From NCBI GenBank assembly GCA_015063535.1, contig SVTY01000013.1, positions 1 through 43,906 on the forward strand: a stretch of DNA of 43,906 nucleotides, given 5' to 3'. The position numbers and the translations under genes were made by a program. Numbering within the stretch: the first letter of the stretch is position 1; each line of letters starts with the position of its first letter. The notes below the pieces were generated by a model. That model made no database searches. It was not told where the DNA came from and was given only the letters and a program-made list of their open reading frames with translations. This document shows positions 27,463 through 43,906 of this stretch, piece after piece. Origin of the DNA: Oscillospiraceae bacterium. Its GTDB lineage: Bacteria > Bacillota > Clostridia > Oscillospirales > CAG-272.

Positions 27463-28803
27463 TCACTGCAATCTTGCTTCCAATTCCTTTTTGCGATCCT
27501 CATAGCCGGGCTTGCCCAGCAAAGCAAACATATTCTTTTTGTAGGCTTCCACGCCGGGCTGGTCAAACGGATTGACACCCAAAACATAACCGGAAACACC
27601 GCAGGCAAATTCGAAGAAATAGATCAAATGTCCCAGACAGTAGGCATTCTTTTCCTCAATCTCGATCATAATATTCGGAGCACCGCCGTCAATATGCGCT
27701 AAGACAGTTCCCTTCATTGCCGTTTGATTGATGGTATTCAGATCGGTTCCGGCAAGGAAATTCAAGCCGTCTACATTTGCCTCGTCATAAGGAACAGCCA
27801 ATTGACTGCTTGCGTTCTTGACAGAAACAACGGTCTCAAAGAGATTTCTGGTTCCGTCCTGTACAAACTGCCCCAAAGAATGCAGATCGGTCGAAAAGAT
27901 CACCGATGCGGGGAACAAGCCCTTGCCGTCCTTTCCCTCGCTCTCCCCGTAAAGCTGCTTCCACCATTCGTTAAACATAGCGGCATACGGCTCGTAGTTT
28001 ACCAAAATTTCGGTCGTCTTACCCTGACGGTACAAGCTGTTTCTGAGCAAGGCATATTTCAGGCAAGCGTTCTTCTCGGGATCGGTTTCCGCAGTGTAAA
28101 GAGCCGCCGCATCCGAAGCGCCCTCCATCAGTTGCTCGATATCCACACCCGATACGGCGATCGGAAGCAAGCCCACTGCTGTCAGCACAGAGAACCGTCC
28201 GCCCACATCATCGGGAACGACAAAGGTCTCATAGCCTGCCTCATCGGAAAATTGCTTTAAGGTTCCTTTTTCCTTATCGGTGGTCACAAAGATCCGCTCC
28301 CGTGCTCCGTCTTTTCCGTACTTCTTCTCCAACAAATTGCGGAACAGGCGGAACGCAACTGCCGGCTCGGTTGTCGTGCCCGACTTGGAAATGACATTGA
28401 TGCAGACATCCCTTCCCTCACAGATAGAAAGCAGCTCATTCAGCGATTGCGCACTGATATTGCATCCCGAAAAATAAATATCGGGCGTATCCTTTTTCAA
28501 GTTGTTGTACATGGGGGAGCGCAAAAATTCGATTACCGCTCTCGCACCGAGATAAGATCCTCCAATACCGATCACAATAAACACATCGCAATTTTTCTTT
28601 ATTTTCTCTGCGGCGGCTTGGATTCGGGCAAATTCGTCCTTGTCATAGTCATCGGGCAGAGTGATCCACCCCAGAAAATCATTACCCTTTCCGTTTTTGG
28701 CAAGCAAGGTCTGCTGTGCAGATCGCACCTCGCTCCCAATTACCGCAAGCTGTGCTTCGTCAAGAAACGGTCTTACATACGCATCGTTCAATTTTAATGT
28801 CAT
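27463..28803 (-). CDS. pgi: Glucose-6-phosphate isomerase
   Basis: A 446-residue enzyme interconverting glucose-6-phosphate and fructose-6-phosphate. I chose the ATG at 28803, with GGGGGA upstream, giving [10 protein letters not shown]; a longer frame to 28842 begins in AT-rich leader. Family hallmarks are [31 protein letters not shown], and [19 protein letters not shown]. The length fits the short Gram-positive form. Upstream is an AT-rich region with several TATAAT-like boxes but no single clear promoter. Confidence 0.96.
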
Positions 28804-28909
28804 AGCAACATCCCCCAAAATATATATAATAAAAAATATCAAGAATTATATTATATAATATTTTTTCTTTTTATTTGAAAACAAACTGTTAATTTTTTGT
28901 AACTATTCA

Positions 28910-30145
28910 TCAGCTCACCGATGCAATTTGCAAAATTCGGATCACGATTCCCCAGAACCCGATCCTATCCACGGTTTCCTCCGCAACGATCTCCTTCGTT
29001 CCTATAGTTATGCCGTCCAATGAGTAGGTCACGGTACCGACCGCACTTCCCTTTTGAATGGGCGCACTCAGGCTTTCGGGACAGTCTACCGTACAGACGA
29101 TCTTAGAAATGCTTCCTTTGGGAACCACTGCCTGAAAGGCATCATAAGAGACCCTACAGGTCGCTTGAACGCCCCCCTTGACGGGAATTGGCTCCAAGCG
29201 CTCCCCTTGCTTTGCATAGATGCCGTAATTGGCAAAGCCCCAATCCAACAGTGTCTTAGCGCAGGCATTTCGGATATCTCTCGTAGGAGCCGCCATTATC
29301 ACGCAGATCAGCCCCATTCCATCCCGCTCTGCCGTTGCGGAAATACAAAAGCCCGCTTTGGCGGTCGAGCCTGTTTTCAATCCCGTGGCTCCTTGATAGA
29401 ATCGAATAAGCCGATTGGTATTGGTCAACCCGAATTCGCCGTTCCGCACCGTATCCATCCAGATCGAGCTGTATTCCGTAATTTTTTCATATTGGATCAG
29501 TGCCTGCGACATAATGGCAATATCCTTGGCGGATGTCACGTGATTGCTTGCCGTATCATCCAAGCCGTTGGTATTTTCAAAATTGGTATGCTCCATACCC
29601 AGTTCCTTGGCACGGCGATTCATCTGATCCACAAATGCCGCTTCGCTTCCCGCAATATGCTCTGCCAAGGCAACCGCTGCATCATTGGCAGAGGCGATCA
29701 CTACGCTTTTTATCATATCCTCCACGGACATCTGCTCTCCTTCCTTTAAAAAGATCTGGGAGCCGCCCATGGAGCATGCGTGAGCACTGGCGGTAACCGT
29801 ATCATCATAGTCCAAGCACCCCGCATCAATGGCTTCCATGACCAAAAGAAGCGTCATGATTTTGGTAACGGATGCGGGCGGAAGTGCTTCCTCCGCATTC
29901 TGCTCGTATAAAATTTTTCCTGTATCCGCTTCCATCAGGATGGCTGATTTGCAATCCAAGGACAACTTACTATCCGCCGATGGGAGCGCCTGCGTTTGAA
30001 ACGGAACAAAACACGTGAGCATCAGTATCATCGATAGCATACACGCTCCTCCTTTGATCCCAAGCCTGCCTGTTCGTTTTCGGTCAAACCGTTGCTGCGA
30101 AGCTATATTTTCGCTCTGTTTGAACCATGGTCTCCTATTTTTCAT
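28910..30145 (-). CDS. D-alanyl-D-alanine carboxypeptidase (PBP5/DacF-like)
   Basis: A 411-residue S11-family serine peptidase that trims the terminal D-Ala from peptidoglycan stem peptides. The three penicillin-binding motifs are intact: SVTK (Ser92, Lys95), SAN (152-154), and KTG (257-259). A basic start with a hydrophobic segment near residues 35-53 serves for export. The C-terminal domain ends in a hydrophobic stretch (GFWGIVIRILQIA) fit for membrane association. The start at 30145 has AGGTGA upstream. DacF-type enzymes act in spore cortex, DacA-type in growth; sequence alone does not decide. Confidence 0.92.
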   Translation of the reverse strand: MKNRRPWFKQSENIASQQRFDRKRTGRLGIKGGACMLSMILMLTCFVPFQTQALPSADSKLSLDCKSAILMEADTGKILYEQNAEEALPPASVTKIMTLLLVMEAIDAGCLDYDDTVTASAHACSMGGSQIFLKEGEQMSVEDMIKSVVIASANDAAVALAEHIAGSEAAFVDQMNRRAKELGMEHTNFENTNGLDDTASNHVTSAKDIAIMSQALIQYEKITEYSSIWMDTVRNGEFGLTNTNRLIRFYQGATGLKTGSTAKAGFCISATAERDGMGLICVIMAAPTRDIRNACAKTLLDWGFANYGIYAKQGERLEPIPVKGGVQATCRVSYDAFQAVVPKGSISKIVCTVDCPESLSAPIQKGSAVGTVTYSLDGITIGTKEIVAEETVDRIGFWGIVIRILQIASVS

Positions 30146-30194
30146 CGTGCATCACCTCAAAACAGTATATGCCGCAGGTCTGTCACGATATGAA

Positions 30195-30222
30195 AAAGCA
30201 ACCGTCGAATGGCGGTTGCTTT
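30195..30222 (-). terminator. Intrinsic terminator after galM
   Basis: AAAGCAACCG (30195-30204) pairs with CGGTTGCTTT (30213-30222). On the minus strand the stem runs into TTTTTC. It follows the galM stop at 30233. Confidence 0.75.
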
Positions 30223-30232
30223 TGCTTTTTTG

Positions 30233-31294
30233 TTATTTCACAGAAAACCGATATTCAGTGGTATAATCATACACCTCATCGGGCATCAATACACAATTGG
30301 TAAAATTCGTATGATGAATGCTATCGGGCATACATTGGGTCTCAAGGCAAAGGAAGGTCTGAGGAACCTGCGCATAGCCGCCCTTAAACGGAAATTCCGC
30401 ATTGTTCAGAAAATTTGCGGAATAAAGCTGTACGCACGGCTGATCGGTAAACATCTCCATCACCCGTCCTCGCTCGGGATCATAAAGCTCTGCCCGCTTT
30501 ACGGGATTTTCGGATCCCCTGTCGGCAAATACCATACAGTGATCGTAACCGCCTGCCAAGGTCAGATCCTCGCAATCGGTGTAAATGTCCTTACCGATTG
30601 CCTTGGAAGTCTGAAAATCAAAGGGGGTATTTTTTACATTGCGAAGCTCTCCTGTAGGGATCAGCGTTTCATCGGTCGGAAGATACCGATCCGCATCCAA
30701 CCAAAGCTCCTGAGAATGAATGCTTCCCGAAGCATATCCCCGCAGATTGAAATAGGTGTGGTTGGTGAGATTCACGGGCGTGGCTTGATCGGTGGTGGCA
30801 ACGTAATGAATGGACAACCCGTTTTGCACCGTCAAGGTATAGGTCACCGTTACCTCCAAATTGCCGGGGTAGCCCTCTTCTCCATCGGGAGAAAGAAGAT
30901 GTAGCTTGACGGAAGGCTCTTCTCCATCCTGCTCGGTCACCTCCCAAATTTTTGCGTTAAAGCCGTATTCACCGCCGTGCAGATGGTTGACACCGTTATT
31001 AACAAACAGCTTGTATTCTTTTCCGTTCAGCTCGAAGCTTCCTTTGGCAATTCGGTTACCGAACCGACCGATCAGAGCACCTTGATATCCGTCTCCCCGC
31101 ACATAGGAATCCAAGCAATCATATCCGCCGACCACATCACTGACACATCCGTAACGATCCGGCACCTTGATCTGAACGATAACGCCGCCGTAATTTAAAA
31201 TTTTGACCTGCATGGCAGATGCATTACACAGTGTATAGGCGTAAACCTCTTCGCCGCTCGGCAAAACACCGAACCATTCCTTTTTGATTCCCAT
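30233..31294 (-). CDS. galM: Aldose 1-epimerase (galactose mutarotase)
   Basis: A 353-residue enzyme that interconverts alpha and beta anomers of galactose or glucose. GRFGNRIAKGSFELNGKEY and NHLHGGEYGFNAKIWE (with the active-site histidine region) mark the N-terminal half. VNLTNHTYFNLRG and FLCLETQCMPDSIHH lie in the later half with the catalytic glutamate. It begins 10 bases after galE and is last in the nucleotidyltransferase-galE-galM set, so it probably feeds galactose into the cluster's pathway. Confidence 0.95.
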   Translation of the reverse strand: MGIKKEWFGVLPSGEEVYAYTLCNASAMQVKILNYGGVIVQIKVPDRYGCVSDVVGGYDCLDSYVRGDGYQGALIGRFGNRIAKGSFELNGKEYKLFVNNGVNHLHGGEYGFNAKIWEVTEQDGEEPSVKLHLLSPDGEEGYPGNLEVTVTYTLTVQNGLSIHYVATTDQATPVNLTNHTYFNLRGYASGSIHSQELWLDADRYLPTDETLIPTGELRNVKNTPFDFQTSKAIGKDIYTDCEDLTLAGGYDHCMVFADRGSENPVKRAELYDPERGRVMEMFTDQPCVQLYSANFLNNAEFPFKGGYAQVPQTFLCLETQCMPDSIHHTNFTNCVLMPDEVYDYTTEYRFSVK

Positions 31295-31304
31295 ACATTA
31301 CTCC

Positions 31305-32318
31305 TCAATCGTCGTAGCCCTTGGGGTTTTTCATCTGCCAGTTATACGAGTCCCGACACATATCCTCTATATTGTATTCTGCCTTCCATCCCAACAGCTC
31401 TGCCGCCTTGGTGGGATTGGCATAGCATTCGTCAATATCGCCGGGACGGCGCTCGGTGATCTTGTAGTTGATCTTGATCCCCGTCGCCTTTTCATAGGCA
31501 TGCACAATGTCCAAAACAGAATATCCGACACCTGTTCCAATATTGAAATACTCAATGCCGGTCAAGGTTTCTGCCCGCTCGATCGCCTTCAGATGCGCCC
31601 GTGCCAAGTCTACGACATGGATATAGTCTCTGACACCGGTTCCGTCATGGGTCTTATAGTCGTTTCCGAAGATAGACAGACATTCCCGTCTTCCTGCGGC
31701 AACCTGTGTAATATAGGGCAACAGATTATTCGGAATTCCCTGCGGATCCTCACCGATCATGCCGCTCTTGTGAGCGCCGATGGGGTTAAAGTAACGCAAA
31801 ACCGAAACGCTCCACTCGGGGTCGGAGGCATACACATCCTTCAGAATGCGTTCGATCATCAGCTTGGTCTCACCGTAAGGATTGGTGGTAGACAGAGGAA
31901 AATCCTCGGTGATCGGAACGCTGGCGGGCTTTCCGTACACCGTTGCGGAGGAACTGAATACAATGCGTTTGGCATTGTACTTGGAGAGCACCTCACAGAG
32001 GTTAAGGGTTCCCGTAATGTTATTGTGGTAATACCAAAGAGGCTTTGCACAGGATTCTCCGACCGCCTTCAGTCCCGCAAAATGGATACAGCTGTCGATC
32101 TCATTTTCCCGCACCACCTTCTCCAGTGCCTCTTTATCCAACAGATCGACCTCATAAAATTTAAAATCCTTGCCTGTGATCTGCTTGACCCGCTCCAAGG
32201 AACAGGGCTTGCTGTTGATAAAATTATCCACGACCACCAACTCACGCCCCGCATTCAAAAGCTCTACCATCGTATGGGAGCCGATATACCCCGCTCCGCC
32301 GGTAATTAAAATTGCCAT
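31305..32318 (-). CDS. galE: UDP-glucose 4-epimerase
   Basis: A 337-residue short-chain dehydrogenase/reductase-like epimerase interconverting UDP-galactose and UDP-glucose with bound NAD. The Rossmann motif [10 protein letters not shown] is at the N-terminus, the catalytic pair is in NPYGETK (Tyr, Lys), and SSSATVYG supplies the serine/threonine. Length is standard. It sits between a nucleotidyltransferase and galM, consistent with UDP-hexose metabolism for galactose use or surface glycan supply. Confidence 0.97.
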
Positions 32319-32358
32319 TTTGATTCTCCTTCTTATGTATGATCCGATCTATCGTTGC

Positions 32359-33261
32359 TCAGCGATTCAATCCGTCGGGATATACGCCGCTTTGCGTTAA
32401 TGTACGAATGCTGTTTTTCACCTTTTCCTTATCCTCGTGGTAGGTTACGCCATACCAAGCATCCTTGGAGGAATAAACCTTTACGGTACACTTTCCCGCC
32501 GCCATCAGCTCCCGAACAGCAAAGGGCAGATAGTATTCGCATTTCAGGGGATTGTTGCCGAGATCACTCAAAAAGGTCTTGAAGCCTTCCATGACTCCCT
32601 CAAAGATATCGGGAGTAAAGCCCCAGCAGTTCATGGATGCGATCGCATCCAGAGCGATCTTGGTTTTCTCGCCATTTTCTTCATATACAGCCGAATCGCC
32701 CTCCTTGCTGATGGCAGTTCGCTCGGTCACATCCCGCAAATAGCCGTCCTCGCCCACTTCACAGATTCCTCGGGAAACCGTTCCGTTTTCGGTAAGGGTA
32801 TTTTCAAGAACATAGCCAACCATGCAATACGCCGCTTTTTTGCTGTTTTCCTCATGGGAAAAATGGGAAGCCAAAAGCGAATAGGCACTTTTTCCGTAAA
32901 AGTCATCGGCATTGATTACCGCAAATGGCTCTTTGACCACCGATCTTGCCGCCAGCAACGCCTGTGCGGTTCCCCACGGCTTGGTGCGACCTTCGGGAAC
33001 GGAAAATCCTGCGGGAATATCGTTGATGTCCTGGAAGGCATATTCCACCTTGACCTTAGACTCAAAGCGTTTTCCGATCGTAGCCCGAAATTCCTCCAAA
33101 TTTTCCTTCTTAATTACAAACACGACCTTATCAAAGCCGCTCCGTACCGCATCGAACACAGAAAAGTCGATGATAAATTCACCGTGGTCTGTGATAGGGT
33201 CGATTTGCTTCAAGCCACCGTAGCGGGAACCCATACCCGCAGCAAGAATTACAAGTGTCAT
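32359..33261 (-). CDS. Sugar-1-phosphate nucleotidyltransferase-like protein
   Basis: A 300-residue protein with the nucleotidyltransferase signature VILAAGMGSRYGGLKQ at the N-terminus and the metal-site segment AVINADDFYG near residue 120. It is clearly different from GalU, whose start is AGLGTRFLPATK-like, and lacks that family's later motifs. Position upstream of galE and galM suggests a UTP:hexose-1-phosphate uridylyltransferase, possibly covering the role of GalT, but substrate and nucleotide are inferences. The leader has an AT-rich dyad at 33278-33294. Confidence 0.78.
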   Translation of the reverse strand: MTLVILAAGMGSRYGGLKQIDPITDHGEFIIDFSVFDAVRSGFDKVVFVIKKENLEEFRATIGKRFESKVKVEYAFQDINDIPAGFSVPEGRTKPWGTAQALLAARSVVKEPFAVINADDFYGKSAYSLLASHFSHEENSKKAAYCMVGYVLENTLTENGTVSRGICEVGEDGYLRDVTERTAISKEGDSAVYEENGEKTKIALDAIASMNCWGFTPDIFEGVMEGFKTFLSDLGNNPLKCEYYLPFAVRELMAAGKCTVKVYSSKDAWYGVTYHEDKEKVKNSIRTLTQSGVYPDGLNR

Positions 33262-33277
33262 GATTTTCTCCTCTTTT

Positions 33278-33294
33278 AAATAAATGATTTATTT
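33278..33294. other. AT-rich palindrome in the nucleotidyltransferase leader
   Basis: AAATAAAT-G-ATTTATTT is a perfect dyad 17 bases before the gene. It may be an operator or chance in AT-rich DNA. Confidence 0.25.
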
Positions 33295-33382
33295 TGAATC
33301 TTAATTATATCATATTCTTTTTAAAAAGAAAATACCTTTTTTTGTTTTTTACAATTTGTTAATATTTTTTTCCAAAAATCCC

Positions 33383-33411
33383 TTGACTTTCTTTTTGAAC
33401 GATGATATACT
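33383..33411 (+). promoter_or_regulatory. Sigma-A-type promoter of the Crp/Fnr-ABC operon
   Basis: TTGACT (33383-33388), a 17-base spacer and TATACT (33406-33411). Transcription would begin about 33418, inside the palindrome that follows. Confidence 0.8.
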
Positions 33412-33417
33412 ATAAAT

Positions 33418-33431
33418 GTCTCATATGAGAC
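33418..33431 (+). promoter_or_regulatory. Perfect palindromic operator candidate
   Basis: GTCTCATATGAGAC is a perfect 14-base dyad lying at the predicted transcription start and just before the ribosome binding site of the Crp/Fnr gene. A dimeric HTH protein bound here would block transcription, so autoregulation by the encoded regulator is the simplest reading. It differs from the usual TGTGA or TTGAT half sites. Confidence 0.6.
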
Positions 33432-33444
33432 ACGGAGGTAATAT

Positions 33445-34119
33445 ATGACCATATATGAGCTATTCCCCCCGATTCGATCTGTTTCTCTTTTTTTTCAAGC
33501 ATCCGAGGAGACCGTCAATCGGTATATAAACGACACTTCTATGAAGGTCTCGGAGTTTTTTGCCGGAGAGATCATCCACTCCCCAAGCTCCGAGAACACC
33601 GAAATCGGTATTGTTTTGAGCGGGATTGCCCGAGCACATACAGGAGATTCAGCCGATCATGCGCTTTTAAAAAAAATGAATGCGGGCGATATGTTCGGCA
33701 TCGCCAATCTGTATGCTCCCGATCAACCATTTCCCAGCTTGATCCTTGCCGAGGAGTTCTGCCGCATCCTGTTCATCAAGGCAACGGCTCTCAGAGCCTT
33801 AATTGAGAATGAGCCGACCGTTCTTCGCAATTATCTGACCCTGCAAAGCCAAAAGATCGTTTATTTAAACCGCAAGATCATGACCCTGACCGCCGGCGCC
33901 GCAGAGAAAAAATTGGCAGTTTTTCTCCTGGAGAAAGAGTCTGCTCTTCAAAAAGCCGCTCCCTTCTCTATGAGTGAGCTGGCAAAGCTTCTCGGCATAG
34001 GTCGGGCATCTCTCTACCGTGCGATCGATGCCTTAGTGGCACACGGAATGATCGAAAAGAAAGAAAAATGCTTGATCGTTCGGGATAAGCTCCTGCTGGA
34101 ACAATATGTTAACCAATAA
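33445..34119 (+). CDS. Crp/Fnr-family transcriptional regulator
   Basis: A 224-residue regulator with an N-terminal cyclic-nucleotide-binding-like beta barrel (residues ~30-120), a long dimerisation helix (~125-155), and a C-terminal winged HTH containing MSELAKLLGIGRASLYRAID. No cysteine cluster for an iron-sulfur centre is present, so it is not an oxygen-sensing Fnr; ligand unknown. GGAGGT precedes the ATG. It is followed 31 bases later by an ABC importer and probably controls it. Confidence 0.88.
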   Translation: MTIYELFPPIRSVSLFFQASEETVNRYINDTSMKVSEFFAGEIIHSPSSENTEIGIVLSGIARAHTGDSADHALLKKMNAGDMFGIANLYAPDQPFPSLILAEEFCRILFIKATALRALIENEPTVLRNYLTLQSQKIVYLNRKIMTLTAGAAEKKLAVFLLEKESALQKAAPFSMSELAKLLGIGRASLYRAIDALVAHGMIEKKEKCLIVRDKLLLEQYVNQ

Positions 34120-34150
34120 AAAACAAACAAAAAGAAAGAAGGAAAATACG

Positions 34151-35239
34151 ATGAAAAACAAATTATTCAAGCTTTTGACTCTCACCCTTGCCTTACTGAT
34201 GCTGCTCCCCTTTGCCGCCGCTTGCAAAAAGCAAGAGGAAACGCCCTCTCAGACAAGCGATGACACCGAATCCACCCAAGCTTCCGAAACAACCGCTCCC
34301 CCTAAAGCAGGCGTTTCGCTGGATCTGACCAAGGAATGGGAAGCACTCAACGGTGCCAACACCTTGGTACAGGGCTGTTTGGTTATCAACACAAAATTTG
34401 CGCAGGAGCATCCCAACGAGGTCGCAAAATTTTTGGAGGATTATAAAGCATCGGTCGAAACCGTAAAGAGTGGCTCAGAGGAGGCGATCAACATGATCGT
34501 CAATGCCGGCATTCTCCCCAAAGCGGCCATTGCCAAGAAAGCGCTTCCCGGCTGTAATATCTGCTATATTGCGGGAAATGACATGAAATCGGTCATGAAT
34601 ACGTTCTGCGAAAAGATCTTCAATTACGACAAGACCTCTATCGGCGGAGCCATGCCCACAGATGCCTTCTATTATACGGCAAGCGGAGATGCGTCCAAAG
34701 CGGACAGTGCCTTGGAAATGAAGGTCTATGCACTGAACGGAACCACCGCACTCGGCATGGCGCAAATGATCGACAATGTCAAAAATGACAAAGCCACGAT
34801 GAACTATAACATTTCTCTGCACACCGCCGCCGATGAAATTACAGGCGCTATCGTAAAGGGAGAGTGCGCCATTGCCGCACTTCCCACCAACGTAGCCGTA
34901 AAGCTGTTCAACAAATCCGAAGGAAAGCTTCAGCTTCTCGCCTTGAACACACTCGGTGTCCTGTATCTGTTGGAGAACGGAGACGAAACCATTGATTCCT
35001 TGGACGATCTGAAGGGTAAGACCATTTATCTGCCAGGAGCAGGCTCCAATCCCGAATATATCACTGCCGCTTTGTTGACCTCTGCCGGCTTGAAGATCGG
35101 TGAGGATGTCACACTCGATACGACCACCTATAACAGTCCCGATGCCCTGCAAACTGCTTTTGCCGCCGGTAAGGCACCTCTTGCCGTTCTGCCCGAGCCC
35201 AAGGTAACGGTCGCTTTGACTGCCGCCAATACGCAGTAA
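34151..35239 (+). CDS. ABC substrate-binding lipoprotein, apparently circularly permuted
   Basis: A 362-residue lipoprotein of the NitT/TauT (SsuA/THI5-like) class. The start at 34151 gives a signal peptide and lipid-attachment Cys25. In the usual family the mature chain begins with a KVYALNGTTALGM-like strand and ends with a P-x-D-x-FYY segment. Here the order is reversed: the usual C-terminal part (SLDLTKEWEALNG to MPTDAFYY, residues ~55-175) comes first. A Ser/Ala-rich linker follows (176-187), then the usual N-terminal part (LEMKVYALNG to PEPKVTVALTAANTQ, ~188-362). All family blocks are present once and in frame, so the fold may be intact. The substrate is unknown. It is followed by permease and ATPase genes. 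Confidence 0.82.
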   Translation: MKNKLFKLLTLTLALLMLLPFAAACKKQEETPSQTSDDTESTQASETTAPPKAGVSLDLTKEWEALNGANTLVQGCLVINTKFAQEHPNEVAKFLEDYKASVETVKSGSEEAINMIVNAGILPKAAIAKKALPGCNICYIAGNDMKSVMNTFCEKIFNYDKTSIGGAMPTDAFYYTASGDASKADSALEMKVYALNGTTALGMAQMIDNVKNDKATMNYNISLHTAADEITGAIVKGECAIAALPTNVAVKLFNKSEGKLQLLALNTLGVLYLLENGDETIDSLDDLKGKTIYLPGAGSNPEYITAALLTSAGLKIGEDVTLDTTTYNSPDALQTAFAAGKAPLAVLPEPKVTVALTAANTQ

Positions 35240-35272
35240 CAGCTTGATAAAAAATTGCGAAAGGAGACATTT

Positions 35273-36066
35273 ATGACGCTCAAAAAAGCATGGCTCACCG
35301 TTGCCAAAATTGCAGTTGCACTTGTATTCTGGCTGGCTATATGGGTATTGGTCTCCTTTCGCATTAACAGCGAGCTGCTGTTTCCTCCCCCGCCTCGGTC
35401 GGGAGGACGCTGATCGACTTGGTTCAAAGCAAGGATTTTTGGCTTATTACCCTACTGTCCCTGATTCGTGTCATATGGGGAATTTTGGTATCCCTGTTAC
35501 TGGGCTCTGTGCTTGCCTATCTGACCACACAAGTCAAGCTTCTGCATATCCTCGTCAGCCCTGCCCTTTCGGCGATCAAATCGACCCCTGTCGCCTCCTT
35601 TATTATTCTTGCCCTTTTATGGCTGGAACGGGACAGTCTCCCCGTGTTGATCACGGCACTGATCGTGATCCCCATCATTTGGGCAAATGTTTCGGAGGGG
35701 ATCGAACGTGTCGATAACGAGCTGTTGGAGGTAGCAACGATCTACCGATTTTCTCTGTGGACAAAATTTCATCGCTTATATCTCCCTTCTGTTGCTCCCT
35801 ATTTTATGGCGGCATGCAAATCGTCGCTTGGAATGGCATGGAAGGCGGGGATCGCAGCAGAGGTTTTGGCAACGCCGCAGCATTCCATCGGAACCGAGCT
35901 TTATTTTTCCAAGACCTATTTGGAAACTCCCACCTTATTCGCTTGGACCTTGGTCGTCATCCTACTTAGTCTGATAATTGAAAAGCTGTTTGTGTTCGGT
36001 TTGGAACGAATTGGACATCATTGGAAGCTTCTTCCGAAAGGAGGTCACCATGCTGAAGGTTCATAA
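35273..36066 (+). pseudogene. ABC transporter permease (SsuC/TauC type), split by a one-base frameshift
   Basis: The reading frame begins at 35273 (MTLKKAWLTV, behind AAAGGAG) with one membrane helix and reaches ELLFPPPP before running out of frame and stopping at 35411-35413. The rest continues in another frame as LIDLVQSKDFWLITLLSLIR to 36066, with the permease EAA-loop region (EVATIYRFS) and further helices. The break lies in the C run 35387-35391. One more C there restores PPPASVGRTLIDLV and a normal ~264-residue permease. It may be a real mutation, a reversible homopolymer switch, or a sequencing error. It sits between the binding-protein and ATPase genes. Confidence 0.85.
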
Positions 36067-36664
36067 TCTTTCGGTCAAATACGGCGATCATACGGTGCTG
36101 CAAGATCTCTCTGCCTCGTTTCCCGAGCAAGGGGTAACCGCACTGATAGGGCCCTCCGGAGTTGGGAAAACCACATTGTTTCGGGTATTGTCGGGTTTGT
36201 TGAAGCCAACGGAAGGAAGCGTCACCTCAACATATCAAAAACCTGCCTATCTCTTCCAAGAGCCGAGGCTGTTTCCGTGGATGAATGCACTGGAAAACGT
36301 CTCGGTGGTCTGCGGAGATAAGCAAAAGGCGCAGGCTCTGTTGACCGAGCTGTTGCCGCAGGAGGATGCTCTGCTGAAATATCCCCACGAATTGTCGGGG
36401 GGAATGAAGCAACGGGTCTCGATTGCCAGAGCACTTGCCTACGATCCCGATATTCTGTTTATGGACGAACCCTTCAAAGGACTTGACGAAGCAACCAAGG
36501 CATCTGCGGCACGATTTATTTTTGAAAAAACAAAAGACATACCTGTTTTTTTCATCACCCATGACAAAGAGGATCTACCATACTGCGATACCGTTTATCG
36601 GATCTGCGCTGCCCCCGTTACGACACTGATTTTGGAAAAAAGTAGCAAGTCGCCTGTTGAATAA
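36050..36664 (+). CDS. ABC transporter ATP-binding protein (SsuB/TauB type)
   Basis: A 204-residue ATPase powering the importer. The start is the ATG at 36050 behind AAAGGAGGT; a longer frame would overlap the permease heavily. Walker A is GPSGVGKT (34-41), the Q-loop lies near FQEPRLFPW, the signature is LSGGM (115-119), Walker B is ILFMDE (135-140), and the switch histidine is His171. It is slightly shorter than the ~240-residue relatives because the C-terminal tail is reduced. It overlaps the permease by 17 bases, indicating coupling, which argues that the permease is normally translated to its end. Confidence 0.93.
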   Translation: MLKVHNLSVKYGDHTVLQDLSASFPEQGVTALIGPSGVGKTTLFRVLSGLLKPTEGSVTSTYQKPAYLFQEPRLFPWMNALENVSVVCGDKQKAQALLTELLPQEDALLKYPHELSGGMKQRVSIARALAYDPDILFMDEPFKGLDEATKASAARFIFEKTKDIPVFFITHDKEDLPYCDTVYRICAAPVTTLILEKSSKSPVE

Positions 36665-36682
36665 TTCAAGCTATGATCGGTC

Positions 36683-36722
36683 AATACTCCTGACAGAAGT
36701 AAAAACTTGTGTCGGGAGTATT
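36683..36722 (+). promoter_or_regulatory. Hairpin burying the sigG ribosome binding site
   Basis: AATACTCCTGACA (36683-36695) pairs with TGTCGGGAGTATT (36710-36722), 13 pairs with one G-U. The stem extends through AAGT/ACTT around an AAAA loop. The right arm contains GGGAG (36714-36718), the sigG Shine-Dalgarno, six bases before the ATG. It would lower translation, or act as an attenuator or weak terminator for the ABC operon, though only four U follow. Confidence 0.7.
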
Positions 36723-36724
36723 TT

Positions 36725-37498
36725 ATGTACTATAACAAAGTTGAGATCTGCGGTGTCAACACCGCCAAATTAAAGGTACTGACCGATGAAGAAAAAAAGA
36801 CACTGTTAAAAAAAGCAAAGGAAGGAGATACCGCCGCAAGGCAAGAGCTGATCTATGGCAATCTTCGTTTGGTTTTAAGCATCATTCAGCGATTTACCAA
36901 CCGAAAGGAAAATATGGACGACCTGTTCCAGGTCGGATGTATCGGATTGGTCAAAGCCGTCGATAATTTCAACACCGATCTGGAGGTAAAATTTTCCACC
37001 TACGCCGTTCCCATGATCATCGGCGAGATCCGTCGTTATCTGCGGGACAACAACAGCATTCGGATCAGCCGATCCGTGCGGGATCTTGCCTATCGGGCAC
37101 TGCAAGCCAGAGAGGAGCTGATCCGAGAAAAAGAGTGCGAGCCCTGCGCCGAGGAGATCGCCCAGAGGTTGGGAGAAAGTAAGGAGGCTGTAGTTCGGGC
37201 AATGGAAGCCATCGTGGAGCCGATCTCGCTGTATGAGCCGGTCTACAGCGAAAACGGAGACTCGATCTACGTGATGGATCAGCTCAGCGATTCCAACAGC
37301 TCTGATGAAATCTGGCTTGAAAACATTGTCCTTCGGGAAGCCATGCAAAAGCTGAGCGAACGGGAACGAACCATTATCAAGCTTCGCTATTACAAAAACA
37401 AAACGCAAATGGAGATCGCCGACGAGATCGGCATTTCTCAAGCTCAGGTCTCCCGATTAGAAAAAGGAGCGCTGGAGCATATGAGGAAACAGATATAA
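36725..37498 (+). CDS. sigG: Sporulation sigma factor SigG
   Basis: A 257-residue sigma-70 factor directing late gene expression in the forespore. I start it at 36725 (MYYNKVEICGVNTAKL), which matches the conserved SigG N-terminus; an upstream in-frame start lies inside the hairpin. Region 2 shows NLRLVLSIIQRF, DLFQVGCIGLVKAVDNF, and FSTYAVPMIIGEIRRYLRD. Region 4 shows LSERERTIIKLRYY and the HTH QMEIADEIGISQAQVSRLEK. In Clostridia sigG commonly follows the spoIIGA-sigE genes; here it follows an ABC transporter operon instead. Confident. Confidence 0.95.
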   Translation: MYYNKVEICGVNTAKLKVLTDEEKKTLLKKAKEGDTAARQELIYGNLRLVLSIIQRFTNRKENMDDLFQVGCIGLVKAVDNFNTDLEVKFSTYAVPMIIGEIRRYLRDNNSIRISRSVRDLAYRALQAREELIREKECEPCAEEIAQRLGESKEAVVRAMEAIVEPISLYEPVYSENGDSIYVMDQLSDSNSSDEIWLENIVLREAMQKLSERERTIIKLRYYKNKTQMEIADEIGISQAQVSRLEKGALEHMRKQI

Positions 37499-37501
37499 AA
37501 T

Positions 37502-37539
37502 AAAAGCCGCATTGTCATGCACATGAAAATGCGGCTTTT
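37502..37539. terminator. Bidirectional terminator between sigG and dpaB
   Basis: AAAAGCCGCATT (37502-37513) pairs with AATGCGGCTTTT (37528-37539), followed by TTTTG on the plus strand and TTTTATTTT on the minus strand. It serves both convergent genes. Confidence 0.85.
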
Positions 37540-37547
37540 TTTGTTTG

Positions 37548-38108
37548 TCAAATAAAAATTTTTTGATATTGCCTGCCCTTTTTTGCCCATTCCAGCGTGG
37601 GCAGGACAAGAGAAAAATCCGCAATCAGGGAATGAGGCTTTTTTTCGGGATCATCTTGGGTCATAGGAACAAAGAACACACATTTCCTGGTGAGAAGATG
37701 TCCGATGTTTTTCAAATTGGCAGACAGTGCATCATTCGATGCCAAAGCGATTACCAACGGTCTGTCACTTCTCAAATGTGCTTTTGCTGCCATCGTAACT
37801 GCGGTATCGGTGATTCCTGCCGCAATTTTGGCAAGAGTATTACCCGTACAGGGGCAAATGACCAATACCTCCAACGGCGTTCGCGGGCCCAACGGCTCCG
37901 CTCCCACGATCGTATGAATGATCGGACGTCCGCAGATCGAAAGCACCTCGTTCTTCAGAGCCTCGCATGTACCGAAATGCGTATCGGTAGAAAAGACCGC
38001 CTCACTGAAAATAGGCTGAAGCTCCGCCCCGTCCTGCGCCAAACGGCGCATTTGCTCCAATGCTTTTTGGTGGGTACAGTACGAGCCGCACATGGCAAAG
38101 CCGATCAT
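37548..38108 (-). CDS. dpaB: Dipicolinate synthase subunit B
   Basis: A 186-residue flavoprotein-like subunit (SpoVFB) of dipicolinate synthase, which in the mother cell makes the dipicolinic acid that loads the spore core with calcium. The start MIGFAMCGSYCTHQKAL and the block LVICPCTGNTLAKIAAGITDTAVTMAAKA are characteristic. It overlaps dpaA by four bases (ATGA), so the two subunits are translationally coupled. Typical length. Confidence 0.95.
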   Translation of the reverse strand: MIGFAMCGSYCTHQKALEQMRRLAQDGAELQPIFSEAVFSTDTHFGTCEALKNEVLSICGRPIIHTIVGAEPLGPRTPLEVLVICPCTGNTLAKIAAGITDTAVTMAAKAHLRSDRPLVIALASNDALSANLKNIGHLLTRKCVFFVPMTQDDPEKKPHSLIADFSLVLPTLEWAKKGRQYQKIFI

Positions 38109-39010
38109 TCCACTCTTACCTCCTCACGCAAAATACCGTCCACGCAGGATGCGATCAGGTTGCCTGCACTCAGAGGCGCATATTTGCCGGGAAGCGAGGT
38201 TGCCCACAGCACATTGGAGCCAAGCTCTTTTGCCGCACAAATATCCACGCCGCCGGGAACCGAAGCAAGATCAATAATAAAGGTAGATTTGTCCGTCGCC
38301 TCCAAGAAGGCACGGTCAAACAACCAATGGGGTACCGTATTATAGATCACATCATATCCATGGCTCAGCCAAGACAGGCCGCTTCCCTTTGCATCCAGCT
38401 TCAATACATGACATCCGGTGGAAAACGCCCATGCAAGGTCACTTTCCTTGCGTGCCGCCACCGTAACCTCCGCACCCAAGCTCTTTAACAACCGAACCAA
38501 ATGCTTGGCGATCCGTCCATAGCCTGTAATGGCAAATTTGGCACCGCAAACATTTTTATCCAAGCTATTCATCGCAATACTGATCGCCGCCTCTGCCGTT
38601 GTGTAAGCATTTTGTATCTGAAATTCCTCGGATTCAAAATAATCCCGTACCTTCATTCCCTTTGCTTCCGCATTTGCCGTAAATTCCAACGGGATCCTGC
38701 CTCCCACGATCACCGTACCGGGAGATATCATTTCGGAAAGCTCACAAAGACGAAGTCGGCTCCCCGTGGTATCAAACGGACAGTTCAAAAACACGCCGTC
38801 CGTGGAAGCCGGCAACGGCAAGATCACGCCTGCGCTATCGACAAGTGCCTCCTCACAGCTTTGACAAAAAACGATCTCCGTTTCTTCTCCTCCCGATTTA
38901 TCCAATCCCCACATCATGATCTTCCACGGTCCGTTGCTCAACGCCACCGCCGCTGTATATTGCCTGAGATCCCCTCCAAGCAAAGCTATTTTGGTTTTGC
39001 TCTTCATCAT
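38105..39010 (-). CDS. dpaA: Dipicolinate synthase subunit A
   Basis: A protein of about 301 residues (SpoVFA) with an N-terminal substrate-type domain (LLGGDLRQYTAAVAL) and a C-terminal Rossmann domain (AITGYGRIAKHLVRLLKSLGAEVTVAARK). It turns the dihydrodipicolinate-pathway intermediate into dipicolinic acid with NAD(P). GTG at 39013 and ATG at 39010 or 39007 are possible starts; ATG 39010 has the best spacing to AAAGGA. Together with dpaB and sigG it shows that the organism forms spores. In Bacillus this operon is under sigma-K; no clear sigma-K box could be fixed here. Confidence 0.94.
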   Translation of the reverse strand: MMKSKTKIALLGGDLRQYTAAVALSNGPWKIMMWGLDKSGGEETEIVFCQSCEEALVDSAGVILPLPASTDGVFLNCPFDTTGSRLRLCELSEMISPGTVIVGGRIPLEFTANAEAKGMKVRDYFESEEFQIQNAYTTAEAAISIAMNSLDKNVCGAKFAITGYGRIAKHLVRLLKSLGAEVTVAARKESDLAWAFSTGCHVLKLDAKGSGLSWLSHGYDVIYNTVPHWLFDRAFLEATDKSTFIIDLASVPGGVDICAAKELGSNVLWATSLPGKYAPLSAGNLIASCVDGILREEVRVE

Positions 39011-39099
39011 CACATTGTCCTTTCCGTAGCAGGAGTTATGGCTCTCGCTTATTACAATACCATCATATGCGATTCAAAGAGCGTTTGACAGAAAATCCG

Positions 39100-41358
39100 T
39101 CACTCCAACAAAAAGCTGAACCTATATGCCTCACCTGAGGTGGAAGAAAAAATGACTGTTTCGAGGTTGTCAAGGAAGCCGGCACCACAAAAAATCTCCT
39201 TTTCCTCGCTCTGTCCATGACAACCGATCAAAACCCTTTTGCTTTGACACATAGAGCGTTTGGCAAAATCCTCCATCGACGAGTCGTTGATCTGCGGCGA
39301 AGCATAGGTAAGCTCCGCTCGCCTTCCCGCCACATTCAAAACGATCGCAGTTTGACCGTCATCGGTATCCCTGCATGCCTGAACACCGACCGAATCCAGC
39401 AAGGAAAGAACCTCCCCTTCTTCGTAAAAGATAACCGAAACGCCGTACTGCCCACAGATATCCCACAGCTCCTTTGCGATCTCCGCCTCCTCCCTGTCGG
39501 CGGGACTTGGCAAGCATACCTGCCGCACGATCAGATTTTGCAAAGAGATATCCAGCATAACGGTATGTCCTCTGTGATAATGCGTGAAGAAAAGACTGTA
39601 AAGCTCGGTAGCCACCGACCGATCCCTTGCCTCATCGATCGCCGCATAGCCTCGCCAGCCTCCGTCGGAAATATCGCAAACGGAAAGCTCATCCTTTTCC
39701 TCTAATACGATCCATTCGTTTTGGGAGCCATCATTCAGATACGTCAGCTCGGGCGCATCATATACGGACAAATACCACCCAAGACAAGCAAGAAATGCGA
39801 CCCCCGCCAAAGCAGGAGGCAGCGCCAACAGCCATGTTCGGCGTAGCCGAACCAACAGCAACACCCCCATACCTACCGTAAAGCCCAATACGATCCATCC
39901 CGCAAAGGGGTACCGCAAGGAAAGGGTTGCGTGAGGAACGCTCGCAAAGAAAGCGATCAGATCAAGGAGCCATTCCGCCAAAATCCGCACCCCCATCAAT
40001 ACCCCGTCTCCCAAAATCGGGATCGCACCTACAAGCAACAGGATCGGAATACTGACCAAAAACAGATTTGACAGAGGAAATAAAACAATATTACTCAAAA
40101 GCGAGATCAACGAGATCTCCTTGAAAAACAGCTGATAGATCGGGAGCAAGAACAAATTGGCAACCAAGGTCATTTCGAAAAGCAAGGCAACGGTTCTCAA
40201 AACAAGAAGTGCCTTTTTTCGTATCCCCTTTTGTTTGCTCGGATACGGAACATGCGCTTCCCACAGGGAATATACGGTCAGAAGCCCCAAGGTTGCCAAA
40301 AAGGACATCCAGAGTCCCAGATCGGTCACCGCCCACGGAGAGATCAGAAGGATCAACACCATCGAGACAAACAGCGCAGTAACCGAATCGTGATCCTCAT
40401 AAAACAGATAGCTCAAATACACCGCATATAGCATAAGCACCGAGCGGCATGCGGATAAAGAAAAGCCTGTCAAGCACAAAAAAGCAAACGCCAATACGGA
40501 TAGCAGAGCGCACCGTATCTTCTTGGGAACATACAGCTTTTGCAAAAGAAGTCCAAGACTCCCCAAAAGCAAGGAAATATGCATCCCGCTGACTGCCATC
40601 ATATGAGAGGTACCTGACCGCCGAAAGTCTCTTGTGATCGAAGAAGATAGATCGGAACGGTCGCCCAAAAGAAAGCCGTTTGCCAAAGCTCCCTTTTCGT
40701 CTCCGAGATAAATTTGTAGCTGCTCTCCGATCCTGTCTCTCACACGGTTGGATACGATCCGCAGACCCGAATCCGAGAACAGTGTCTCTATCCATCCCAT
40801 ATCCGACGGTGCCCGCTGTATATATGCGGCAGACGGCTCTGCAAGCTCCAACGTCAGCAAAGCACTGTTGCCTCCCGCATTCTGCAACGCCGCTCCCTCC
40901 GAAATTACAAACCGAGCGGCGACCCGATCCTGCGGCGACAGGATAATCCCCTTGGGACACAAAAGGGCTGCCCGAATCTCTGTACTGTTCTGTTCGATTT
41001 GCTCCACCTTTACCAGATAACAGGAGGAATATTCGGTCATGCGATCCTCTTCTATAACGTAGCAGACCGCTCTTTGCTCTCCCACATACTCCGCCGCTTT
41101 TCGTTGCGGCTGAACGATCGTACAGAACGAATACAAGCAAGAAAAAAGAACGGTAATACAGCAAAGCAATACCGTTAACAGAAGAATGCGGCACGAACGA
41201 AAGACAATCAGCCCAGCGGTCAGAAGTAGGGCGATTCCCGCAACCGAAAAAAAGAGGATCGGTGACCATTGGTCGTCGTACGCAAGCCAATTCAAGAGGA
41301 GCACAAGCATGAAGATACAACAAAACAAACACAGAGGACGTCTGCCAAACAGGTTCAT
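39100..41358 (-). CDS. comEC: ComEC/Rec2-family DNA-uptake channel protein
   Basis: A 752-residue polytopic membrane protein. I use the ATG at 41358 behind AAAGGAG rather than the in-frame TTG at 41379. The N-terminus has the small DUF4131 region. The competence domain starts near RDFRRSGTSHMMAVSGMHISLLLG and carries the membrane channel helices. The C-terminal beta-lactamase-like domain is present but altered: the usual H-x-H-x-D-H reads HYHRGH (593-598), and the D-V-G-Q-G-D start reads YLNDGSQNE. ComEC normally carries single-stranded DNA across the membrane and this domain may degrade the other strand; that activity looks lost. No other com genes are nearby. Confidence 0.88.
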   Translation of the reverse strand: MNLFGRRPLCLFCCIFMLVLLLNWLAYDDQWSPILFFSVAGIALLLTAGLIVFRSCRILLLTVLLCCITVLFSCLYSFCTIVQPQRKAAEYVGEQRAVCYVIEEDRMTEYSSCYLVKVEQIEQNSTEIRAALLCPKGIILSPQDRVAARFVISEGAALQNAGGNSALLTLELAEPSAAYIQRAPSDMGWIETLFSDSGLRIVSNRVRDRIGEQLQIYLGDEKGALANGFLLGDRSDLSSSITRDFRRSGTSHMMAVSGMHISLLLGSLGLLLQKLYVPKKIRCALLSVLAFAFLCLTGFSLSACRSVLMLYAVYLSYLFYEDHDSVTALFVSMVLILLISPWAVTDLGLWMSFLATLGLLTVYSLWEAHVPYPSKQKGIRKKALLVLRTVALLFEMTLVANLFLLPIYQLFFKEISLISLLSNIVLFPLSNLFLVSIPILLLVGAIPILGDGVLMGVRILAEWLLDLIAFFASVPHATLSLRYPFAGWIVLGFTVGMGVLLLVRLRRTWLLALPPALAGVAFLACLGWYLSVYDAPELTYLNDGSQNEWIVLEEKDELSVCDISDGGWRGYAAIDEARDRSVATELYSLFFTHYHRGHTVMLDISLQNLIVRQVCLPSPADREEAEIAKELWDICGQYGVSVIFYEEGEVLSLLDSVGVQACRDTDDGQTAIVLNVAGRRAELTYASPQINDSSMEDFAKRSMCQSKRVLIGCHGQSEEKEIFCGAGFLDNLETVIFSSTSGEAYRFSFLLE

Positions 41359-41434
41359 TGCTTGTATTCTCCTTTCCAATTCTTGAATAATTTATAAATT
41401 TTTTTATTTTTTTCAATTCTTGTGAGGATTTGTC

Positions 41435-41463
41435 TTGACAAGTTCAAAAATATATTATATAAT
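41435..41463 (+). promoter_or_regulatory. Perfect consensus sigma-A promoter of the acyl carrier protein gene
   Basis: TTGACA (41435-41440), a 17-base spacer and TATAAT (41458-41463). Both hexamers and spacing are ideal, predicting high constitutive expression. Confidence 0.9.
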
Positions 41464-41525
41464 ATGAGTTGTTAAGATCAACAATCGGAACAAACCGATC
41501 ACAGAACTGAATAGGAGGAAAAAAC

Positions 41526-41753
41526 ATGTACGAAAAGTTTGCTGACCTGCTTGTAGAAGAATTACAAATCGATCGCAACGACATTACCATGGAGGCTGAG
41601 CTTTCCAATGATCTTGGAATCAATTCCATTGAGCTTGCCGATTTGGTTATGCTGTGCGAAGATAAGTTTGGCATTGAGATCAATGACGAGGACATCCGCA
41701 AATTCACCACTGTTGGCGATGTTGTGACTTACCTCGAGACCTTGAACGGCTGA
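41526..41753 (+). CDS. acpP: Acyl carrier protein
   Basis: A 75-residue acidic four-helix carrier. The 4'-phosphopantetheine attachment serine is Ser34 in DLGINSIELADLV; the usual D-S-L is N-S-I here. EDKFGIEINDEDIRKFTTVGDVVTYLE completes the family pattern. It stands alone, without fab genes, under a perfect promoter and an AGGAGG ribosome site, and is closed by a terminator. The strong signals suggest the main fatty-acid ACP, but a specialised carrier cannot be excluded. Confidence 0.93.
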   Translation: MYEKFADLLVEELQIDRNDITMEAELSNDLGINSIELADLVMLCEDKFGIEINDEDIRKFTTVGDVVTYLETLNG

Positions 41754-41769
41754 TATCATCCATATACGG

Positions 41770-41810
41770 AAAATCCTGCTTTTTGACTAAGCTCACAAAA
41801 GCAGGATTTT
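41770..41810. terminator. Bidirectional terminator between acpP and the small peptide gene
   Basis: AAAATCCTGCTTTT (41770-41783) pairs exactly with AAAAGCAGGATTTT (41797-41810). T runs lie on both strands, so it ends acpP (plus) and the minus-strand GLUG/peptide transcript. Confidence 0.85.
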
Positions 41811-41828
41811 TCATTATGCGGCGAGACC

Positions 41829-41963
41829 TTACCAATCCCAATTCTCTCCCCCGCTCTTTTCCACCACGGTTAATTCCGAGGAAGGCTCTAACGATAGATT
41901 CAGAATATCCTCCGCACAAAGCAGGCACCAATTACAAAGAGGTCGCTCATATACTTTTTTCAT
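41829..41963 (-). CDS. 44-residue Cys-rich peptide coupled to the GLUG protein
   Basis: A short frame beginning MKKVYERPLCNWCLLCAED. Its ATG overlaps the TGA of the preceding gene (AAATGA), and AAAGGAGGAGG lies just before it, so translation is very likely. The peptide carries C-x2-C-x2-C (Cys10, 13, 16), an AEDILNLS-like middle, and an acidic, Trp-containing tail (ENWDW). It resembles a loose class of short clostridial peptides of the form MKK-x-Y-x-x-P. There is no signal peptide or membrane helix. Function unknown; possibilities include a metal- or cluster-binding peptide or a modified-peptide precursor. Confidence 0.65.
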   Translation of the reverse strand: MKKVYERPLCNWCLLCAEDILNLSLEPSSELTVVEKSGGENWDW

Positions 41964-43492
41964 TTTGCCTCCTCCTTTGCCGTTCCCAGTATATCGGTAT
42001 TCAGATCAAACAAGATTTTCTCCCCGTCCGGCACCGTTTGACCGCCCGAAACATGATAGCTTTGCAAGGTAAAGTGAATGATACCGCAGCCCACGGGAAT
42101 ATGGTTGATATTCAAGGCAAAAATATAAGCACCACCCAGATCCTGTGCCGTATAATCCACTCTCGTTTCCTCTGAGCCGTAGCCCGTAATGCTTCTGTAC
42201 ACACTCTCGAATTGCCGATCTTGTTCTTTGGTTCCAATCTTTTCATGCGCCCCATACGCCATCACCTTCAAACCGACCGCCTCATAAGAAAGCGAATCCA
42301 CCACGCCGACAATGCGAAGGCTGAATTGATCGGTAATCTCGTGCGAAAGCTGATACCCTACCAGCTTGGTTCCAAATTGCATAGGCTCTTCCGTGGGAAT
42401 ATCCGACAGCCGCATGGAAGCGACCGTGCTTGGCAAGGCGTATCCGTTCCGATCGGCTTTCCAATGCGTCAAGCCGTATTGCGCCAAGGTCAGCATCGCA
42501 TCCAATCCCGTCAGATCATCTTCCTTCACCGAAGCATACTGCCCCAAAAGGGTTTCGGCAACGCCGATCCCGGGGATCGGCGACGATCCGTTTGCCGTGT
42601 ATAGATTGTTCTGCAACGTCACTTCTGCCGAGGCAGAGCCGTAAAGTGCCCCCTGCTTCCCTGCCGAGGAAACAATAGCAGCATCCGCAACCGAACAGGA
42701 AACCGTGCCTGCCACATCTGCCGCTCCAAGCAATCCGCCCACGGCACCCGTCGAACCATTCAATACGCCGTAGGAAGCGCAATCCTTGACAAAAAACGAA
42801 CCGTAATTTGCTATACCGATCAAGCCGCCCAAATTTTTTGCGGAACTTGCGGTGATCGTTCCCGCAAACACACAGGAATCGGCATCCAACAAAAATGCCT
42901 GACAGCGACCGATCAAACCGCCCACATTCGCATTGCTCGCAGTACACCGAATATCCACATCCACATAGAGATTTTCCAAAGTGGCGGTTTGCGTGGTGTA
43001 CATTTGCCCAAAGATCGCTCCCACATAGGTGGCTGTGTTGCTTACGATCAAGGAATTGACGATCGACAAATTTCGCACGCATGCAGAGGTTCCCTGGGGC
43101 TTGCCGAATATCCCCACATAGGTTTTCGTGGATGGATAGTAAAGCCCCGAAACGGTATGCTCATTTCCCTCGAAGATTCCCGCAAAATTTTCTGTTCCCG
43201 TGTTATACCAAGGAATCAATGTGTTGGTTTGAAGATCATCGGCAGACAGATCGCCGTCATTGATCGTCACATCGCACAATAGCTCAATTGTTTTTCCGGA
43301 AAAATTGTTTTTTGTTGCAAGCAAATACCCAAATCCGAGAAAATCCTCGCTATCTCGAAGATACAATACCTCATCGGACGCATGATACCATGAGATATCG
43401 TAATTCATAGTAGCCGCAGAACAAACCGAAAAAATCGACAATACAGAAAGCAGCAGTACGACTGAAAGAATAAATGTGATACACCGTTTCAT
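41960..43492 (-). CDS. Secreted GLUG-repeat surface protein
   Basis: A 510-residue exported protein. A signal peptide (MKRCITFILSVVLLLSVLSI) is cut near SAA. The first ~330 residues are a run of parallel-beta, GLUG-type repeats, with recurring VGGLIG, LGGLIGIA, VGGLLGAA and strand-rich spacers, as in adhesins and wall-associated proteins. The last ~150 residues form a separate beta domain (LSHEITDQFSLRIVGVVDS). No LPxTG or S-layer anchor is seen, so it may be released or held by other means. It is co-transcribed with the 44-residue peptide. Confidence 0.8.
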   Translation of the reverse strand: MKRCITFILSVVLLLSVLSIFSVCSAATMNYDISWYHASDEVLYLRDSEDFLGFGYLLATKNNFSGKTIELLCDVTINDGDLSADDLQTNTLIPWYNTGTENFAGIFEGNEHTVSGLYYPSTKTYVGIFGKPQGTSACVRNLSIVNSLIVSNTATYVGAIFGQMYTTQTATLENLYVDVDIRCTASNANVGGLIGRCQAFLLDADSCVFAGTITASSAKNLGGLIGIANYGSFFVKDCASYGVLNGSTGAVGGLLGAADVAGTVSCSVADAAIVSSAGKQGALYGSASAEVTLQNNLYTANGSSPIPGIGVAETLLGQYASVKEDDLTGLDAMLTLAQYGLTHWKADRNGYALPSTVASMRLSDIPTEEPMQFGTKLVGYQLSHEITDQFSLRIVGVVDSLSYEAVGLKVMAYGAHEKIGTKEQDRQFESVYRSITGYGSEETRVDYTAQDLGGAYIFALNINHIPVGCGIIHFTLQSYHVSGGQTVPDGEKILFDLNTDILGTAKEEAK

Positions 43493-43534
43493 AATAGCCT
43501 CTTTTCTATGCTTTTATTGGTTGTAACATGTATC

Positions 43535-43563
43535 AATATACCATTTTTGTCGTATTTTGTCAA
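43535..43563 (-). promoter_or_regulatory. Sigma-A-type promoter of the GLUG operon
   Basis: Minus strand: TTGACA (43563-43558), a 17-base spacer and TATATT (43540-43535), giving a leader of about 35 bases. Confidence 0.8.
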
Positions 43564-43654
43564 GCTATATGCGGTAATTTTTCCCAAAATATCAAATAGA
43601 ATTTTTTGTTTTCTTCAAAAATATAATTTTTTCAAGAAAAAAACAAAAAAGCCC

Positions 43655-43683
43655 TTGCTTTTTTGGGGCGCATATGGTATAAT
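43655..43683 (+). promoter_or_regulatory. Promoter of the terminal structured RNA
   Basis: TTGCTT (43655-43660), a 17-base spacer and TATAAT (43678-43683). The predicted start falls at about 43688-43690, next to the first stem of the RNA, with no room for a coding gene. Confidence 0.75.
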
Positions 43684-43686
43684 ATG

Positions 43687-43906
43687 TGTTGGTCGATTTT
43701 TTCAGTGAAGGTTGCGGTCGATAGGTTTCTATCAAAATTCCAACAATAAGATTTCATATGGAGAGTTATCTCGCCTATAGCGAGAATACCCACACCCTGC
43801 GCCTGACAAGCGAGCTTGTCGATCTTCGGGTGGGGTATGCGAAGTGGATTCGGACAACAAGTTGTCCGAGCCAGTCGATATCTGCCCCGTATGAAATTGA
43901 AAATTT
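43687..43906 (+). ncRNA. Unassigned structured RNA, cut by the window edge
   Basis: No reading frame of note crosses this stretch, yet it folds well. TGTTGG (43687-43692) pairs with CCAACA (43740-43745) and encloses the hairpin GATAG/CTATC. A 10-12-pair closing stem joins 43752-43761 to 43887-43896. It holds three hairpins: TCTCGC/GCGAGA (43769-43785), an 11-pair stem with one bulged A (ATACCC..ACCC with GGGTGGGGTAT, 43786-43838) capped by GACAAG/CTTGTC, and CGGACAAC/GTTGTCCG (43851-43868). GTCGAT occurs four times. It is a multi-branched RNA, unlike 6S, tmRNA or RNase P. A raiA-type RNA is a guess only. Confidence 0.5.

Follow-up and report, generated by a model that had tools for sequence, protein, structure and literature searches.

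Natural circular permutations have mostly been regarded as ancient events that each happened once and left no surviving intermediates. Among described systems, the one most like the locus reported here is TpMglB-2 (Tp0684), described as a natural, lipid-tethered, circularly permuted ABC-transporter binding protein of the proposed Type Ic / Cluster Bc (PMC4990184). Both proteins are permuted substrate-binding proteins (SBPs) held by a lipid tether, and the authors of that paper also suggest that tethering may favour a new topology. The two differ in fold and history: as described there, TpMglB-2 has a type I sugar-binding fold, is cut elsewhere, and occurs in treponemes and Gram-positive bacteria (PMC4990184), whereas the relatives of our protein are type II (SsuA/NMT1-like), and it is nested among canonical orthologues, with several origins of the permuted form. 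A review, in its available part, describes permutation by duplication (e.g., saposin/swaposin and DNA methyltransferases) and by fission-fusion (PMC3320104); the former cases belong to the same class of event as ours and likely followed the same genetic route. That part of the review (PMC3320104) describes no repeated, in-place permutation of one orthologous gene at the same loop in one bacterial family, and a literature search whose scope left out most subscription papers brought up no account of an orthologous binding protein that was permuted more than once. Here, a single orthologous gene in a single operon has been permuted repeatedly, with close canonical sisters at hand for comparison; as such, the origin of a permutant, its passage through selection, and its effect on a tethered receptor become directly testable.

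The gene is an open reading frame at 34151-35239 of the window (i.e., the whole stretch of 43,906 nucleotides that was analysed) and encodes a lipoprotein SBP of 362 residues, NMT1/SsuA-like in type. An earlier note on this DNA had proposed that the halves of the protein stand in swapped order, with the signal peptide and lipid cysteine still in front and a new linker joining the old C-terminus to the old N-terminus. The parts of the locus agree with this arrangement:

33445..34119, + strand: CRP/FNR-type regulator that opens the conserved locus (Pfam PF00027, PF13545)
34151..34225, + strand: signal peptide and lipobox Cys25 (codon 34223-34225), read from the sequence
34226..34315, + strand: Ser/Thr/Pro-rich spacer from the lipid Cys to the folded core, of low pLDDT in the model
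34316..34678, + strand: C-block, SLDLTKEW...FYYT, residues 56-176, equal to the canonical C-terminal half (TIGR01728 profile positions 176-242; HMM order scan)
34679..34705, + strand: new 9-residue linker ASGDASKAD from the old C-terminus to the old N-terminus (comparison with canonical C-tails and mature N-termini)
34706..35236, + strand: N-block, SALEMKVYALNGTT..., residues 186-362, equal to the canonical N-terminal half plus a new C-terminal tail (TIGR01728 profile positions 67-165)
35273..35413, + strand: 5' part of the permease gene, whose frame ends early (sequence)
35419..36066, + strand: remainder of the permease, in a different frame; only this piece was searched (BPD_transp_1, Pfam PF00528)
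36050..36664, + strand: ABC transporter ATPase (Pfam PF00005)
36725-37495, 37551-39013 and 39103-41379, downstream: by Pfam, a sigma-70-type factor; a flavoprotein-family gene beside dipicolinate synthase A-type (sporulation-type); a ComEC/competence-type gene

When the halves were scanned apart, the first block fell on the later and the second on the earlier positions of TIGR01728, such that the swap is visible independently of our own alignments. The whole protein passes Pfam NMT1 (PF09084; 27.7 bits against a gathering score of 20.5); against TIGR01728, the SsuA-type aliphatic sulfonate binding proteins that both halves match, it stays below the curated cut-off (46.9 against 163.5 bits), a score that the swapped order itself lowers. 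By profile and by HMM scan, the protein departs from the canonical N-to-C order of the NMT1/SsuA-like family: each block occurs once, in frame and swapped, behind one signal peptide, the old termini are linked, and the new termini lie inside an old loop, which is the arrangement of a circular permutant. The N-block opens with SALEMKVYALNGTTALGM, and the lipobox Cys is invariant across the aligned permuted proteins (n=11). The canonical homologues found show the opposite order and match in two pieces, including the best of them, from genome G009 (84% identity over the N-block and 80% over the C-block). The block limits first suggested, residues ~55-175 and ~188-362, proved right to within a few residues.

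The permuted order recurs in other genomes. In the window's genus (g1; the window's genome is G000), the gene is present in 18 of 30 genomes, 13 of them canonical and five permuted (G000, G005, G029, G014 and G020), and the remaining 12 have no match to the blocks; the proteins of the four further permuted species are 63-80% identical to the window's. A family search with the permuted protein of G051 (g23) as query gave matches in 250 of 394 genomes, and the matches listed include full-length permuted proteins from four further genera: G307 (g64, with five of six genomes matched and one of them permuted), G367 and G276 (g28), G191 (g19), and G354 (g29, with 24 of 35 genomes matched and three of them permuted). 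The same search found a partial permuted pattern in G422 (g69). When block order was scanned by HMM in 80 fetched loci, 68 were N-C, 11 were C-N, and one was N'-C-N. The last, G422 (L124), is a second kind of permutation, with its cut about 40 residues further upstream in the protein and an operon that is otherwise normal. Among named genomes, the best 80 loci comprised 67 N-C and 13 C-N, ten of the latter already seen and three new (L195, L197 and L199, of which L195 and L199 appear by frame length to be G769 and G764). The titles of these 13 permuted records read Clostridia bacterium (10), Oscillospiraceae bacterium (2), and uncultured bacterium (1), and 10 of the 13 name gut samples of roe deer, yak, goat or sheep. 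In total, 15 genomes of the reduced set carry a permuted gene, and 14 share the window's cut.

Order-level and class-level samples gave matches in 226 of 394 and 157 of 391 genomes, and full-length permuted proteins among the matches listed came only from the window's family; in such searches a permuted protein with the same cut would be expected among the top matches, and one with another cut would escape notice. The family, order and class samples were all drawn from larger groups. Fourteen handles with odd or missing matches, including G422 (12 matched), yielded no additional full-length permuted case, and G331 and G287 are partial genes with matches at contig ends. One genome (G248) has two sets of SBP matches on separate contigs (C125 and C58; L270 and L291), both canonical by match positions.

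A trivial source of such genes would be misassembly or mosaic contigs, in that the named permuted records are MAGs. The probability of this is negligible: the same order and cut occur in related species with diverged sequence and in several accession series, some permuted copies lie on long contigs (444 kb in G276, 353 kb in G029), and coding constraint spans the permuted gene. Shared and diverged permuted orthologues refute misassembly, and the permutation is natural, as first supposed.

That the permuted genes have separate origins goes beyond the earlier note. In the SBP tree, permuted proteins group with the canonical orthologues of their own genus, with UFBoot values of 100 for G191 with G148, for G307 with G201 and G159, for G354 within g29, for G276 and G367 within g28, for G051 with three g23 proteins, and for G422 with g69. 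The tree of regulator, permease and ATPase (76 taxa, each with at least two genes found, G307 and G191 being kept regardless) returns identical genus groupings with support of 100. The rpoB tree covers 26 of 30 genomes (no match in G005, G014, G009 and G307, with G422 outside the set), and all eight permuted genomes in it stand with their own genus.

Horizontal spread between genera after a single permutation, each time replacing the local SBP, would account for the common cut loop of 14 of the 15 permuted genomes and would accord with signs of possible SBP exchange within g1. However, both blocks find their best match in their own genus in most of 12 permuted proteins (the exceptions are the C-block of G307, closest to G045 of g17, and the N-block of G422, closest to G391 of g28). 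Forced monophyly of the 11 C-N proteins was rejected (dlnL 633, p-AU 1.4e-63), as was the pairwise joining of the seven permuted groups in 21 of 21 AU tests (largest p-AU 0.0099), in tests run without L197, L195 and L199 on constrained trees that were built by fast searches and whose likelihood differences are possibly overstated. We are left with a very slim chance of a single origin; as the sole explanation between genera, g1 apart, horizontal spread is refuted by the AU tests.

Denser SBP trees contain ten separate permuted clades, with L197, L195 and L199 also falling apart. One of these trees (143 rows, near-identical rows removed, 15 permuted) is interim and carries no support values; the other (179 rows) holds the same genome twice where it is present in two collections and drops entries with N below 140 or C below 95 residues. 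The partial gene of G053 was excluded from the SBP trees. Inside g29, support in the denser trees is weak, and the g29 operon tree groups L195, L199 and three canonical loci together (98), away from G354. The SBPs nearest to L197 are canonical, its regulator and ATPase are nearest to those of g23, and its placement has weak support (0.55, 179-row tree). Because support is weak for g29 and L197, we state the count of independent permutation events as at least seven, with about ten likely. Fewer gains combined with many reversals would be less parsimonious.

Within g1, the five permuted SBPs fall together, weakly in the first SBP tree (UFBoot 56) and with SH 0.986 in the 179-row tree, and the operon and rpoB trees set G029 beside the canonical G023 and G028 (100 in both). 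The SBP data reject the full species-like arrangement of g1 (p-AU 0.0045) and do not reject the placement of G029 (L040) with G028, G023 and G009 alone (p-AU 0.11). This genus could have seen one permutation followed by SBP exchange, or two events, reversal or convergence. The disagreement among its trees looks like the outcome of an exchange between species that involved only the permuted SBP.

We consider it very probable that the gene encodes the lipid-anchored SBP of an ABC importer and was permuted at its own locus; the most likely route is a tandem duplication whose outer halves were then lost, and the role in uptake would have been kept. Under this model, the coding region for the N-block and C-block would have been duplicated in tandem and in frame behind one signal peptide to give N-C-N-C, after which loss of the first N-block and the last C-block would leave signal-C-N. 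The product would fold into the usual two lobes and serve uptake as before, with the lipid tether now entering at the loop ahead of strand VALDLTxEW and no longer at the first strand. The earlier note had already named this route, and the junctions speak for it. The 14 same-cut proteins share a cut in the loop that links the helix following LPEPxVT to the strand preceding ALDLTxEW (helix 211-218 and strand 222-227 in the canonical model); the length of this loop varies among canonical proteins. The new linker has about 8-13 residues across the permuted proteins; in g1 it resembles the old C-tail (FYYTA) followed by the old mature N-terminus (KADxxLEM), with canonical counterparts such as FYYTAK and KADEELEI, and in G191 it reads YYTAK-ENAG-TPDTSLEI, the resemblance being looser outside g1 and G191. 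Fused tandem copies would leave just such a C-tail followed by an N-terminus. The 80 loci and 151 further entries scanned (partly the same places) contained neither an N-C-N-C intermediate nor separate genes for N and C, and the duplication step is therefore one that we infer.

Transfer of the C-block piece to the linker that follows the signal peptide, by cut and paste or by template switching, would yield the same final order and would pass through no duplicated intermediate, in keeping with the loci scanned. We rate it as unlikely, in that it requires precise excision and insertion each time and that linkers made of a C-tail and then a mature N-terminus are given by duplication without further steps. 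A repeat scan of 33900-35450 found no repeats at both block ends; it found one pair of direct repeats (17 nt, 88%), at 34518-34534 inside the C-block and at 34695-34711 over the new linker, which may be due to chance. Fission into N and C genes with subsequent fusion in reverse order is a known route to circular permutation, according to the available part of the review cited above (PMC3320104), but it is highly improbable here, given that the loci scanned hold no split genes and that every permuted case has one signal peptide in front.

The operon around the permuted gene is otherwise ordinary, and the gene was permuted in place. In the permuted loci (n=12), the regulator lies upstream in all 12, and the permease and the ATPase lie downstream in 11 and 10, respectively; across all 80 loci the corresponding numbers are 60, 71 and 74. 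Missing operon genes are attributable partly to contig ends (G307, on a short contig) and partly to weak or absent matches, and gene spacing is alike in permuted and canonical loci. The window has the permease and ATPase that mark the operons of this SBP family, its permease being frame-shifted within 35273-35419, near a C-rich stretch, with the break at ~35400. The permease is a single open frame in the permuted G005, G029, G014 and G020, and the shift in the window is either a sequencing error or a recent loss; the window's copy of the operon may therefore not work. No Rfam families reached the gathering score in window positions 28000-43906.

The fold is predicted to have survived the swap. 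An AlphaFold2 model of the window protein, based on an alignment of 14 permuted proteins together with 46 canonical single blocks, has a pLDDT of 92.3 and a pTM of 0.84, and its strands and helices follow the canonical order, rotated. Type II proteins lead the structure matches listed (50 rows per comparison), and families beyond those lists may match as well. Against 3hn0, a nitrate transport protein-like SBP of Parabacteroides distasonis with canonical order, the model of a canonical orthologue covers 277 of 280 residues; in the permuted model only residues 187-361 align, onto 23-182 (the first 160 residues of 3hn0). The comparison was sequential only, and a missing second half is the expected output of a sequential aligner.

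The new attachment point may need a longer tether. The distance from the lipid Cys to the core is at least 10 residues in permuted proteins and less than 8 in 40 of 119 canonical rows (Mann-Whitney p 0.04), a weak hint from a comparison that holds duplicates (21 permuted rows from 14 genomes, and canonical rows likewise). The earlier note had suggested that a moved tether could alter how ligand is presented to the permease, an idea for which spacer length offers no more than this weak difference. That the cut recurs at one loop may reflect a lack of other sites where a cut does no harm, a benefit of the moved tether for these bacteria, or a tendency of the locus to duplicate there. It is also conceivable, if somewhat doubtful, that a lineage-specific process, either mutational or selective, is still at work in the family and permutes the SBP at one loop, possibly reversibly, in which case the two forms would interchange within genera and might do so within populations. 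Together, these results indicate that a single family of gut bacteria has made the swap several times, mostly at one and the same place and with the gene unbroken, and the simplest reading would be that the protein still serves uptake as before and that only its membrane tether has moved.

Substitution patterns, read from sequence comparison, indicate that the permuted gene is under purifying selection. Three of the four permuted pairs were estimable, with dN/dS (Nei-Gojobori) of 0.084 for G000/G005, 0.065 for G005/G029, and 0.166 for G014/G020; these values are rough, since dS is high (2.0, 3.3 and 1.1, respectively) and is saturated in the fourth pair, G276/G367. Of 18 residues that are invariant in 32 canonical proteins and were mapped by hand, 16 are also invariant, and two nearly so, in 11 permuted proteins.
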